Source of the DNA: an uncultured Bacteroidales bacterium
GTDB taxonomy: Bacteria; Bacteroidota; Bacteroidia; Bacteroidales; Bacteroidaceae
Direction of reading: 5' to 3'
NCBI GenBank assembly: GCA_902763885.1
Contig: CACWTU010000009.1
Coordinates: 1 to 64,000 of the forward strand
Length of the DNA: 64,000 nucleotides
Shown piece after piece: positions 9,730 to 63,900 of the stretch. A program made the position numbers and the translations under genes. The notes under the pieces were generated by a model. The model saw only the letters and a list, made by a program, of their open reading frames with translations. It was not told the origin of the DNA and made no database searches. Each line of letters starts with the position of its first letter. The first letter of the stretch is position 1.

Positions 9730-10647
9730 ATGAAGAAAGTATTATTTACAGCAGCTCTGGCTCTCGTAGCAGTAGTAGCCAGCGCACAGGAGCCAAACTT
9801 CCCGATGATGGGTGGCGGTTTTGGCGGTTTCGGTGGCTTTGGCGGTTTTGGTGGCGGCCAGCAGACCGATGTTAAGTTTGATGAGTATGTAGCTGCACCT
9901 GAGGGTTTTGACCAGGAGCGTGCTGGTGTCAAGAAGGGCACTGTAAAGCTTATCGAGTATCAGTCAGAGTCAGTAGGCACAACACGTAAGGCTAACGTTT
10001 ATCTTCCTGCAAGCTATGACGGCAAGAAGAAGTTCAGCGTTCTCTATCTGCTCCACGGTATTGGTGGTGACGAGTGGGAATGGATGAATGACGGTGGTGT
10101 ACCTAACATCATCATGGATAACCTCTATGCTGATGGCAAGGTGGCCGATATGATCGTAGTTATGCCTAACGGACGTGCAGCCAAGAATGACTCACGCGAG
10201 GGTGGTATGGGTTCAGCCGCTGCTTTCGGTGAGTTTGACAAGGACCTCCTGGGTAGCCTTATCCCTTACATCGAGAAGAATTTCAGCGTATATACTGACA
10301 AGGATCACCGCGCTATCGCCGGCCTTTCAATGGGTGGCGGCCAGTCTCTGAACTTTGGTCTGGGCAATATGGACAAGTTCGCTTATGTAGGCGGTTTCTC
10401 ATCAGCTCCCAATACTGCACGTGCAGCCCAGCTCATTCCTGATGTTGAGAAGGTTAAGAAGGAGAACAAGCTCTTGTGGATGGTATGCGGTGGTGCCGAT
10501 GGTCTGATTGGCAACAGCACACAGCTCAAGGCTTTCTGCGACGAGAACGGAATCCCCTGCACTCTGATCAACTATCCTAATGAAGGTCACAACTTCACTG
10601 TTTGGAAGTATGGTCTTTATAATTTTGCACAACTGATTTTTAAATAA
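9730..10647 (+). CDS. secreted alpha/beta-hydrolase esterase (CE1-like) with Gly/Phe-rich segment
   Basis: This 305-residue exported protein has a signal peptide (residues 1-19, ending VVASAQ). The catalytic fold shows [13 protein letters not shown] (oxyanion region, about 108), the nucleophile elbow GLSMGGG near 205 (Ser), an acidic candidate in GGADGLIG near 255 and the catalytic His in NEGHNF near 285. This is the arrangement of feruloyl/acetyl-xylan-type CE1 esterases. Between signal peptide and domain, residues 26-44 are a GGFGG repeat, one of several such tracts in exported proteins here. Codon use is of the highly expressed type, unlike the preceding locus. Confidence 0.85.
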
Positions 10648-10677
10648 TAAGGATTCCTGTTGCAGTTAAGTAAAACA

Positions 10678-10712
10678 AAGCCCCGACAGCAAAGCGTTGT
10701 CGGGGTTTTGTT
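10678..10712 (+). terminator. intrinsic terminator after the esterase gene
   Basis: CCCCGACA (10681-10688) pairs with TGTCGGGG (10698-10705), with a loop that can close further, followed by a run of T (10706-10714 region). It lies 30 bp after the stop codon of the esterase gene. Confidence 0.85.
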
Positions 10713-10899
10713 TTACCCGGCCTGGAAGGCCGGCAGAGTGGAATGGAATGAAATGGAATGGAACGGGTTTGGGGCGTCGCCGCCCCAAACTAAAAAAATG
10801 TCGTGTATCAAATACGCAGATGGGTTTCCATCCAACGACTTTTGAGGCCAAAGGCCCCAAAAGTCAAAAATAACCGAGCGTCGTAGGCGCGAGTAAAAA
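10713..10899. other. intergenic stretch with further hairpins and TGGAA repeats
   Basis: Between two convergent genes, after the terminator, there are three more hairpins: CCGGCCT/AGGCCGG (10717-10733), GTTTGGGGCG/CGCCCCAAAC (10767-10790, perfect 10 bp, then A-run) and a 12-bp stem with one mismatch (10838-10864). A short TGGAA pentamer tract lies at about 10740-10765. No convincing gene is seen. The second hairpin could terminate transcription from either side. Confidence 0.6.
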
Positions 10900-61663: not shown

Positions 61664-61684
61664 AAATAATCTTCATGGAACGAA

Positions 61685-61718
61685 TTTAAACAGATTCTAA
61701 GATTTGTTTTATTTTTGC
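61685..61718 (+). promoter_or_regulatory. promoter of the GH43 gene
   Basis: TTTA (61685-61688), 21 bp, TATTTTTGC (61710-61718). The -7 box is perfect and the -33 box has three of four matches. The leader of about 40 nt contains CTAACCTAATTACTAACTA. Confidence 0.65.
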
Positions 61719-61761
61719 GATAATCAATACGAATCATTAGGCTAACCTAATTACTAACTAT

Positions 61762-63900
61762 ATGATACATTTATTCCGTAAAACATTGTTTTGTGCCGCT
61801 GTCTTGACGGCATGTGTTGCAGCTCAGGCCCAGACACGTCACACATTCGCCAATCCGCTCGATGTAGTGGTGGGTAATGAACGCGCTGTACGTGGCGGTG
61901 AGCCCGTGGTCATCATCTTTGAGGATGATTATTTCCTGTTCGTGTCACACAGACGCGGATACTGGTATTCTCCCGATTTCCGCAACTGGACATATGTGGA
62001 TGCTCCCGGATATCCTGCCGGTGTGGTATCGGTGGTAGAGATGGACGGCAAACTGATAGGCTGCTCCATGAACAACCGCAACGTCTATCGCGCCATAGAC
62101 CCGCGCAAGGGCGAGTGGGAGAAGATAGGTGAACTAAGCAGTGACCGCTATGGTGACGCCAACATGTTTGTGGATGATGACGGCCGCCTGTATATGTATT
62201 TTGGCTGGTCACAGATTATGCCTTTCCAGGTAGTTGAGCTGGATAAGGAGACCTTCAAGGAGAAGGGTGAGCCCAAACCCCTGTTCTGGAGTGATATCAA
62301 GAACCATGGATTTGAGGTACGCAAGCCTGAGGATGTAATCTACTCCATATTCAACGGCCGCCGCGATTACGGCCCCGAGGAGCTGCCTTGGATAGAGGGT
62401 CCCTACATGATCAAGCATAACGGCAAGTACTATCTGCAGTACGCAGCCATCGGTCTTGAGTTTATCTCATATTCACACGGTATCTATGTGTCTGACAGTC
62501 CGATGGGTCCGTTTACTTATAGTGAGCACAACCCGCTTACCTTCAAGACAAGCGGATTCCAGGTAGGTGCTGGACACGGCAGCACGTTTCATGACAAGAA
62601 GGGTAACCTGTGGACCATCTGTATGATTCCCGCACAGTACGGTGAGGGTGGCCGTGGATCAGAACTGGCTATATATCCCACAGCTGTTGATAAGCAGGGC
62701 GTGATGTATTCCAACACTGCTCTTGGTGACTATCCGCAGTATTACCCCGATGAGCGCAAGGTGGGTGGAGTAGATAACTACGTTGACTGGAAACTGTTGT
62801 CAGTAAATAAGAAAGCCATTGTGTCTTCAACCTTTGAGAACTATGCTCCAAGCCAGGCTCTGGATGAGGATTTCAAGACCTGCTGGGTAGCAGCTACGGG
62901 CGATGCCGGCGAGTTCTTTACCGTTGACCTGGGTGACAAGGCTACCATCAATGCCATACAGCTCAACTGGGATCACATAGGTGCAGCACGTGCCGGTGGC
63001 GGCATGGGCGGATTCGGCGGTATGGGCGGCGGCAGAACGCAGCAGGCTCAGGCCGAGCAGCTCTATCAGTGCTATGAGGTGTTTGTATCGGACAATAACT
63101 CCAGTTGGACAAAGATTATCAGCAAGCCCCAGAACAAGATGGAACTCAAGCATGAGTACATTGAACTGGAAAAACCCGTAAGTGCACGTTATGTCAAGGT
63201 TGTCAATGTGGCTACGTATGACGGTGCCAAGTTCTCAATCAAGGATCTGCGTGTATTCGGTACCACACCAAATATGAAGACCCAGAAGGTAAAGAAGTTC
63301 ATGGCTGTACGCAATCCAGAGGACCGTCGTGAGGCCAACGTGATTTGGGAACCCGTGGCTGGTGCTGACGGCTATATCGTTCGCTACGGTATTGAGAAGA
63401 AGAAACTGTACAACAGCTACATAGTCTATGGCAAGAACGAACTCTATATGCATTCTCTGAACACTGCGCCTAACTATTACTTTGAGGTTGAGTCATTCAC
63501 AAGCGGACTGCCTAAGTATAATGAGAACCCGCGTGAGACCATCGGACTTGGTGCAGAGTTGCAGATTGCCAAGCGTGGCGGCGGTATGGGCGGCGGAGGA
63601 AATGCCGGCTATCGCCAGACTGCCGATACCAAGTACATCATGCTCAAGGAGAACGTAAAAGAGTACTGGTTTGAAGATATCGATGCCGGCAACTGGACTC
63701 TGAGCCACTCATACGGACCTGTCCTGTGGGCAGGTCAGCTTACTGATGCCGATGTCATCTCAACTCAGGCCAATCCCAAGCCAACCGTTACTGCCAAGCT
63801 CACATTGCTGGGCGAGGGAACCAACATTACCGGCACACTCCAAATGCAGGTTATCCCCGGCAAGGAAAAAGCCCGCATCAAAATTGTTGTAGAGAAATGA
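61762..63900 (+). CDS. GH43-like glycosidase with F5/8 type C (CBM32-like) domain and two Gly-rich tracts
   Basis: This 712-residue protein has a signal peptide (MIHLFRKTLFCAAVLTACVAAQAQ). Residues 28-330 form a five-bladed propeller: RGGEPVVIIFEDDYFLFVS near 44, YGDANMFVDDDGRLYMYFGW near 133 (middle Asp) and WIEGPYMIKHNGKYYLQY near 212 (general-acid Glu). At the catalytic base position, the family's Asp-Pro is Glu-Pro here (GGEP). Residues 345-515 are a discoidin-like domain, interrupted at about 411-427 by GGMGGFGGMGGG; a fibronectin-like domain (about 525-610) follows, and a second GGGMGGGG tract at about 605-617. It probably acts on arabinose- or xylose-containing glycans. Confidence 0.87.
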   Translation: MIHLFRKTLFCAAVLTACVAAQAQTRHTFANPLDVVVGNERAVRGGEPVVIIFEDDYFLFVSHRRGYWYSPDFRNWTYVDAPGYPAGVVSVVEMDGKLIGCSMNNRNVYRAIDPRKGEWEKIGELSSDRYGDANMFVDDDGRLYMYFGWSQIMPFQVVELDKETFKEKGEPKPLFWSDIKNHGFEVRKPEDVIYSIFNGRRDYGPEELPWIEGPYMIKHNGKYYLQYAAIGLEFISYSHGIYVSDSPMGPFTYSEHNPLTFKTSGFQVGAGHGSTFHDKKGNLWTICMIPAQYGEGGRGSELAIYPTAVDKQGVMYSNTALGDYPQYYPDERKVGGVDNYVDWKLLSVNKKAIVSSTFENYAPSQALDEDFKTCWVAATGDAGEFFTVDLGDKATINAIQLNWDHIGAARAGGGMGGFGGMGGGRTQQAQAEQLYQCYEVFVSDNNSSWTKIISKPQNKMELKHEYIELEKPVSARYVKVVNVATYDGAKFSIKDLRVFGTTPNMKTQKVKKFMAVRNPEDRREANVIWEPVAGADGYIVRYGIEKKKLYNSYIVYGKNELYMHSLNTAPNYYFEVESFTSGLPKYNENPRETIGLGAELQIAKRGGGMGGGGNAGYRQTADTKYIMLKENVKEYWFEDIDAGNWTLSHSYGPVLWAGQLTDADVISTQANPKPTVTAKLTLLGEGTNITGTLQMQVIPGKEKARIKIVVEK

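Follow-up and report, generated by a model that had tools for sequence, protein, structure and literature searches.

Why should exported bacterial proteins of several folds carry much the same runs of glycine, phenylalanine and methionine? The question is raised by a stretch of 64,000 nucleotides from an uncultured Bacteroidales bacterium of the gut (positions 1 to 64,000 of contig CACWTU010000009.1, assembly GCA_902763885.1; C9:1-64000 of a 2.71 Mb genome, hereafter the window), in which five exported proteins contain tracts built from motifs such as GGFGG and GGMGG. Across a larger sample of the same genome, GG[FM]GG was present in 19 of 205 proteins classed as exported and absent from the other 451 (p=1.4e-10). 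The explanation that we favour, tentatively and with somewhat less than even confidence, is that the tracts are disordered, composition-selected segments with Phe or Met 'stickers' in Gly, which would give weak contacts in the cell envelope. The tracts of the window are the following (contigs, genomes and loci are cited by numbers beginning with C, G and L, G000 being the genome of the window):

9805-9864, plus strand: tract 1, residues 26-45 of a CE1-type esterase (gene 9730-10647), after the signal peptide; assigned from the sequence, Pfam Esterase and orthologues.
21805-22053, minus strand: tract 2, a Gly/Met/Pro/Gln insert of about 83 residues (121-203) in an alpha/beta-hydrolase (gene 21274-22413); assigned from an alignment, an AlphaFold2 (AF2) model and a PETase-like fold.
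45913-46035, plus strand: tract 3a, residues 288-328 of a TonB-receptor-like barrel (gene 45052-48276), in the loop between strands 3 and 4, probably extracellular; contains GGFGGMGGGM.
48157-48273, plus strand: tract 3b, C-terminal tail of the same barrel, residues 1036-1074 (the last 39), final residue Phe; probably periplasmic.
49960-50010, minus strand: tract 4, short, residues 962-978 in the C-terminal domain of a CE6-GH51 enzyme (gene 49837-52893).
62989-63042, plus strand: tract 5a of a GH43 enzyme (gene 61762-63900), at residues 410-427 within the region of the F5/8-type C domain; GGFGGMGGGR in it matches the abductin consensus.
63568-63612, plus strand: tract 5b, residues 603-617 of the same GH43 enzyme.

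All five proteins carry tracts where an earlier note on this DNA had placed them, the one in the hydrolase being rather longer than described. That note had also called the five proteins unrelated. Several folds and varied sites are indeed represented, but the esterase (Pfam Esterase) and the hydrolase are both alpha/beta-hydrolases, so that the five proteins amount to four folds, not five. The hydrolase has a PETase/cutinase-like fold, according to a fold search used for identification only. In the alignment its insert replaces a short loop of the homologues L314 and L315 and precedes the nucleophile elbow GMSCGG; it is the longest tract region, segments in the sample otherwise measuring 10-55 residues inside larger proteins. 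The 50 fold matches listed for the barrel were mainly TonB-dependent transporters (at a low TM-score of 0.24-0.33 by query, with large root mean square deviations). The CE6-GH51 tract is by far the weakest of the window, with 7 Gly in 16 residues and a single GGFGG. As the note had stated, no cytoplasmic protein of the window has a tract: none was found in any non-exported window protein, the top scorer being the P-loop of F1-ATPase beta, with 7 Gly in 16 residues and no GG[FM]GG.

The sample comprised 848 kb, namely the window and 784 kb from the same genome, with 657 genes called by a simple rule of longest open reading frame (ORF) and codon usage. Export classes came from a rule-of-thumb signal-peptide call and were edited by hand in two cases: the GH51 protein was moved to the exported class and one spurious antisense ORF was dropped. 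Without the GH51 move, GG[FM]GG is found in 18 of 204 exported against 1 of 452 other proteins. A composition threshold of at least 9 Gly in 16 residues selected 14 of 205 exported proteins and none of the 451 others (Fisher 6e-8); for the exported count, 100 shuffles gave a mean of 0.84 and a maximum of 4. The equal frequency in cytoplasmic proteins that the earlier note had named as speaking against a common use was thus not what the sample gave. Windows of 10 residues with 6 Gly were present in four non-exported calls, of which two look like Obg and FtsZ, one more is unnamed, and the fourth (C6:255220) is a carboxylesterase lipoprotein whose start had been misplaced. GG[IL]GG was also matched, by chance or as normal sequence, in a receptor-like protein and two short ORFs. 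Genome-wide, the restriction to non-cytoplasmic proteins fails, since the bacterium's own DnaJ, outside the sample, has GGFGG twice in its G/F region; its GroEL, outside the window, has a brief Gly/Met tail in which GG[FM]GG does not occur.

The tracts could have a non-adaptive origin, with codon repeats expanding by replication slippage in tolerant loops of exported proteins and not in cytoplasmic ones, and with Phe/Met-Gly as an accident of the seeds. We consider this unlikely, though still a sizeable possibility, and the reading frame of the sites is among the observations that speak against it. The DNA pattern GGNGGNWTBGGNGGN occurs at 135 sites genome-wide (100 of them listed), 88 of which fall in the sample. 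These 88 comprise 78 in frame 0 of exported-class genes, one in the GH51 gene, seven in a GH10 lipoprotein gene and, within exported genes, one antisense and one out of frame; the GH10 sites lay at the edge of the stretch that was read, and their in-frame status was taken from the separately read GH10 locus. Altogether, 86 of the 88 encode Gly-Phe/Met (or I/L) in exported genes, eight of them by hand correction (7 GH10, 1 GH51), and, the GH51 correction aside, none of the 88 lies in a cytoplasmic or multi-spanning membrane gene. A slippage microsatellite is expected to be independent of frame and compartment; here almost all sites share one frame of exported genes. The reversed DNA pattern still encodes GG[F/L/Y]GG and is not an independent control, and frames and gene classes were used in its place.

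The residue that interrupts the glycines also counts against slippage. At 88 GGXGG sites in exported sample proteins, X was Phe in 53 and Met in 26 (79 of 88 together), followed by Q (4), R (3), Y (1) and L (1). Ala, Val, Asp, Ser and Cys, all one base away from Gly, never occupied X; Arg, also one base off, did so in the three cases just given. The synonymous codons of most tracts are about as mixed as random draws, yet these one-step Gly mutants, Arg excepted, are absent, and Phe and Met recur across ten Pfam families. Synonymous identity between neighbouring units was near random at 11 of 14 lags (z from -0.5 to 2.5 over all 14). Gly was encoded by GGC 240, GGT 147, GGA 70 and GGG 1 times, a mix which indicates that third bases have diverged and first and second bases largely have not. 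Successive Phe/Met residues stood three (36) or four (30) positions apart in 66 of 87 cases. From these sequence patterns, the composition of the tracts looks to be under selection at the protein level. As a separate observation, GGG is nearly missing from tract Gly codons (1 of 458, whereas it makes up 427 of 6635 in the remainder of the exported proteins), perhaps through avoidance of G runs.

Composition also bears on the earlier suggestion that the tracts bind metal through Met. Met is enriched (log2 1.7), as that idea would have it. However, Phe outnumbers Met as the sticker, numerous tracts contain Phe without Met, and a looser tract mask of 760 residues contained no Cys and one His, so that we do not retain metal binding as the common use and regard it as very improbable.

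We then compared orthologues. For the esterase, the 80 closest loci were kept and 79 proteins read (none from L088, a partial one from L147); their records name Bacteroidaceae, Bacteroidales, Prevotellaceae, Prevotella and one Colenecus, mostly as metagenome-assembled genomes, with rumen, omasum and herbivore gut as named sources. Among 37 genomes of the genus, matches were found in 37 for the barrel, 32 for GH43, 33 for the hydrolase and 36 for GH51, though not all of those for the barrel and the hydrolase were orthologues, some being paralogues at about 38% and 55% identity, respectively. Up to 30 loci were fetched per protein, of which 24 of 30 were readable for the first GH43 tract, 25 of 30 for the barrel, 29 of 30 for the hydrolase and 30 of 30 for GH51. 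The position of the tract was kept in most loci read, and X was Phe or Met in 247 of 258 sites for the barrel, 64 of 64 for the esterase, 60 of 70 for the hydrolase and 43 of 58 for GH43. Of the 25 barrels, 21 were intact and had a tail rich in Gly, which ended in Phe in every case; two ran off the contig, and L166 and L178, as read, had no such tail. Tract length differed between orthologues, including close ones, as slippage would predict. Many outgroup esterases begin with a short PMFGG, GMFGG or the like, which could be the seeds that slippage requires; at the same place, Gly/Phe residues number as many as about 20 in the group to which the window belongs. The earlier note had held that length varying at random between relatives would point to simple slippage; this was borne out for length and not for composition, as X stays mostly Phe or Met while synonymous sites vary.

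Several further results favour slippage or otherwise weigh against the sticker explanation. Among 29 tracts, four (the barrel loop, the barrel tail, the C4:90125 tail and one in the hydrolase) had internal DNA repeats in excess of the null at p<=0.02 and three more at p 0.06, the barrel tail containing near-pure repeats. Synonymous identity, although near random at most lags, lay above the null mean at 13 of 14 and at z>=2 at three. Eight pairs of different genes shared at least 20 bases of DNA, against 3.75 in the null (standard deviation 1.5). Column-wise ratios of non-synonymous to synonymous change (pN/pS) were 0.24 in the esterase tract, 0.61 in that of GH43 and, within the barrel, 0.69 (loop) and 0.96 (tail, from 3 pairs), with 0.13-0.18 in flanks; these tract values are upper limits on which we do not rely, because indels throw the columns out of register, but the range of 0.6-0.96 in three of the four tract sets argues against strong constraint on the exact sequence. 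The looser mask admitted 23 A, 12 S, 2 D and 1 V among its 760 residues, and other residues at X in orthologues included 14 R and 1 A among the 58 GH43 sites, 6 I, 1 S and 1 V among the 258 barrel sites and 9 Q among the 70 hydrolase sites. A good tract is missing in a few genus members, such as in the GH51 of L335, L336 and L342. The carriers probably lie in different compartments, so that one common assembly is not obvious, and the proposed association is read from sequence and by analogy. In our reading of these sequence data, composition would be constrained, and order and length would not, with slippage giving part of the length change; slippage alone would not explain the recurrence, noted earlier, of tracts at different sites in exported proteins with several folds. 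We put aside the idea that a single DNA cassette was copied from gene to gene, the excess of common DNA being only slight; the longest stretch common to two genes was 27 bases, with up to 30 in the null.

The kinds of protein involved suggest another possibility, that the tracts form flexible flaps by active sites, where Phe and Met would bind glycan of the plant cell wall or else feruloyl, lignin and similar aromatic groups. A Pfam scan of 20 carriers gave Esterase in five, GH3 in two and BD-FAE, GH10, GH43, GH51/SASA, CotH, OMP_b-brl_3 and TonB_C in one each, with DUF4412 in two (one above the cut-off, one just under) and no family in four. Further carriers, with families assigned by eye, are a GH3 enzyme, a carboxylesterase B, an esterase, a second barrel, an FMN/FAD lipoprotein and the large protein C8:23261; two more, the near-alike single-span anti-sigma-like proteins C3:180177 and C7:82889 of G000, have GGFGGFGGF beyond the membrane span. 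The Esterase, BD-FAE, GH3, GH10, GH43 and GH51 enzymes agree with substrate contact, as does the placing of the hydrolase insert just before the nucleophile elbow. On the other hand, the tracts of the barrel tail and of the TonB_C, DUF4412 and anti-sigma-like proteins are in carriers without such a substrate, and the usual glycan-stacking residues, Trp and Tyr, are almost missing (W 1 and Y 2 of 760). We judge substrate contact quite improbable as the general role. Two BD-FAE-like enzymes of different families, L270 (G354) and C2:131987 (G000), have identical signal-peptide sequences and similar tracts, which suggests transfer between the families.

The trait is strongest in this genus. In a survey of 151 genomes of the family, none of the 142 from outside the genus had more than 80 sites; the nine genus members had 32 to 135, and six of them exceeded every outsider. 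With a stricter pattern in 247 genomes of the order, the genome studied here had 46 sites, G354 had 12 and the other 245 had 4 or fewer. Five more genomes contained 31 (G024), 7 (G050), 23 (G021), 14 (G063) and 12 (G354) sites; 30 of their loci, six from each, yielded 18 distinct tract ORFs, of which 15 had a signal-like N-terminus, three were cut at the 5' side and none was plainly cytoplasmic. X was Phe or Met at 91 of 97 sites in these loci, and the nine ORFs from G021, G063 and G354 were, by eye, of the kinds found here (GH43-like, CotH, esterases, barrel tail, GH10 and BD-FAE).

Thirty loci from the order survey, named by eye, consisted of 13 TPM-type tails, 9 GroEL tails, 5 DnaJ G/F regions, one from the genome itself and two others. 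This abundance of chaperones would fit a folding aid in cis, in which each tract would promote the solubility and folding of its own protein or of its neighbours in the periplasm, a compartment not known to contain ATP-driven chaperones, much as the GroEL GGM tail or the DnaJ G/F region might. Such an aid would act from any site in the chain, matching the observed placement. However, the insert-free hydrolase homologues L314 and L315 indicate that the fold does not require the tract. No chaperone family was found among the 20 carriers scanned with Pfam, so the tracts of these proteins are not attached to chaperones as in GroEL and DnaJ. We hold a folding aid to be improbable. For GroEL itself, a published study describes Gly/Met tails that populate polyproline II (PPII) helices, with Met on the surface of modelled bundles, and proposes client contact through Met (PMC12571646).

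Predicted structures are consistent with disorder in the tracts. The AF2 model of the hydrolase, built from 20 sequences, had a fair core, with an insert at predicted local distance difference test (pLDDT) scores of about 33-50 and disorder over residues 105-189 (numbered from a later start). The barrel model was moderate (pLDDT 66, predicted TM-score 0.55), and its tract (289-324) and tail (1025-1074) scored below 50; across both models, tract pLDDT was about 20-50. The low-confidence coil shown by AF2 does not discriminate for or against PPII. A Gly-rich PPII helix or bundle would have a GGX period of three residues, the interval seen between Phe/Met residues in 36 of 87 cases, next to 30 with an interval of four. 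By the rule that periplasmic turns are short, the barrel loop tract would be extracellular and the tail periplasmic. Since the tail thus appears to be periplasmic, the surface-only assembly put forward earlier is unsupported as a common use, and a strictly surface role is doubtful; assembly, glycan binding or another contact role is possible.

Five sampled exported proteins have a Gly-rich C-terminus: the window barrel (48271-48273) and C2:41823, C2:312956, C4:90125 and C6:142053 of G000. Phe is the last residue in all five, against 21 of 205 exported proteins overall. A C-terminal sorting signal was dropped as the role of all tracts, such ends being confined to these five sampled exported proteins. 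Elsewhere in the window, the true start of the longest ORF at 16735-19317 (minus strand) likely lies further in; its called start resembles what we take to be read-through of a tRNA gene.

How do the tracts compare with known Gly-Phe/Met sequences? Abductin, the rubber protein of the scallop hinge ligament, has the consensus GGFGGMGGGX (PMC13052691). It shares with the tracts its Gly/Met/Phe composition and its export, and an exact GGFGGMGGG is present in one esterase, in the GH43 enzyme and in the barrel; the full decapeptide is found in 3 of 657 sample proteins. Unlike abductin, where the repeat makes up a whole structural polymer, the tracts are short segments in folded enzymes and a receptor, bacterial and known from sequence, no homology being implied, and none forms most of an extracellular structural protein. 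The GroEL/Hsp60 GGM tail is likewise flexible, with Gly spacers and a hydrophobic residue at every third position; in contrast to the tracts, which use Phe and Met, are exported and lie internally as well as terminally, it is cytoplasmic and uses Met only. The DnaJ G/F-rich region has similar GGFGG repeats, two in this bacterium, and DnaJ is a single conserved cytoplasmic chaperone, unlike the many families here. Also similar are the exported Bacteroidales proteins that we presume to be of the TPM family, with tails such as GGFGGFGGG; these form one family in which most ends read like GGGAGGSW, whereas the tracts occur in many families and those at C-termini end in Phe. Searches of the open-access (PMC) literature, judged by titles and the opening of abstracts, listed no report of tracts like those described here in bacterial exported proteins.

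Under the explanation that we tentatively favour, Gly would serve as spacer and Phe or Met as sticker at every third or fourth residue (GGX/GGGX). The tracts occupy permissive positions, whether behind the signal peptide, in a loop or at the C-terminus, of carriers many of which are putative enzymes for arabinoxylan and related plant glycans. Starting from short Gly/Met/Phe seeds, slippage or unequal recombination may lengthen and shorten the tracts, with selection holding X at Phe or Met. Weak, many-sided Phe/Met contacts could then form among the carriers, or with a partly hydrophobic plant polymer, in or on the envelope, by analogy with abductin chains or GroEL GGM tails. The spacing of three to four, the PPII and surface Met of GroEL tails and the abductin consensus favour such sticker-and-spacer contacts. 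A bolder version, which we think unlikely, is a scaffold-free, condensate-like enzyme layer, in which a Phe/Met-in-Gly code would co-assemble unrelated fibre-degrading enzymes and an outer-membrane receptor in the envelope.

Gly-Phe/Met tracts of low complexity are known from isolated examples, namely abductin, GroEL and DnaJ. Here, about one tenth of the sampled exported proteins (19/205) share the same two sticker residues and the sampled cytoplasmic proteins have none, DnaJ, outside the sample, being the exception. The genus thus offers a natural replicated experiment on such tracts outside the cytoplasm, in which tract-free homologues, as for the hydrolase (L314, L315), serve as controls in some cases, and perhaps on how these bacteria arrange their fibre-degrading enzymes. 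If the enzyme layer were true, it would be an alternative to the cellulosome, with a low-complexity tract in place of cohesin-dockerin pairs, arising separately in each family.

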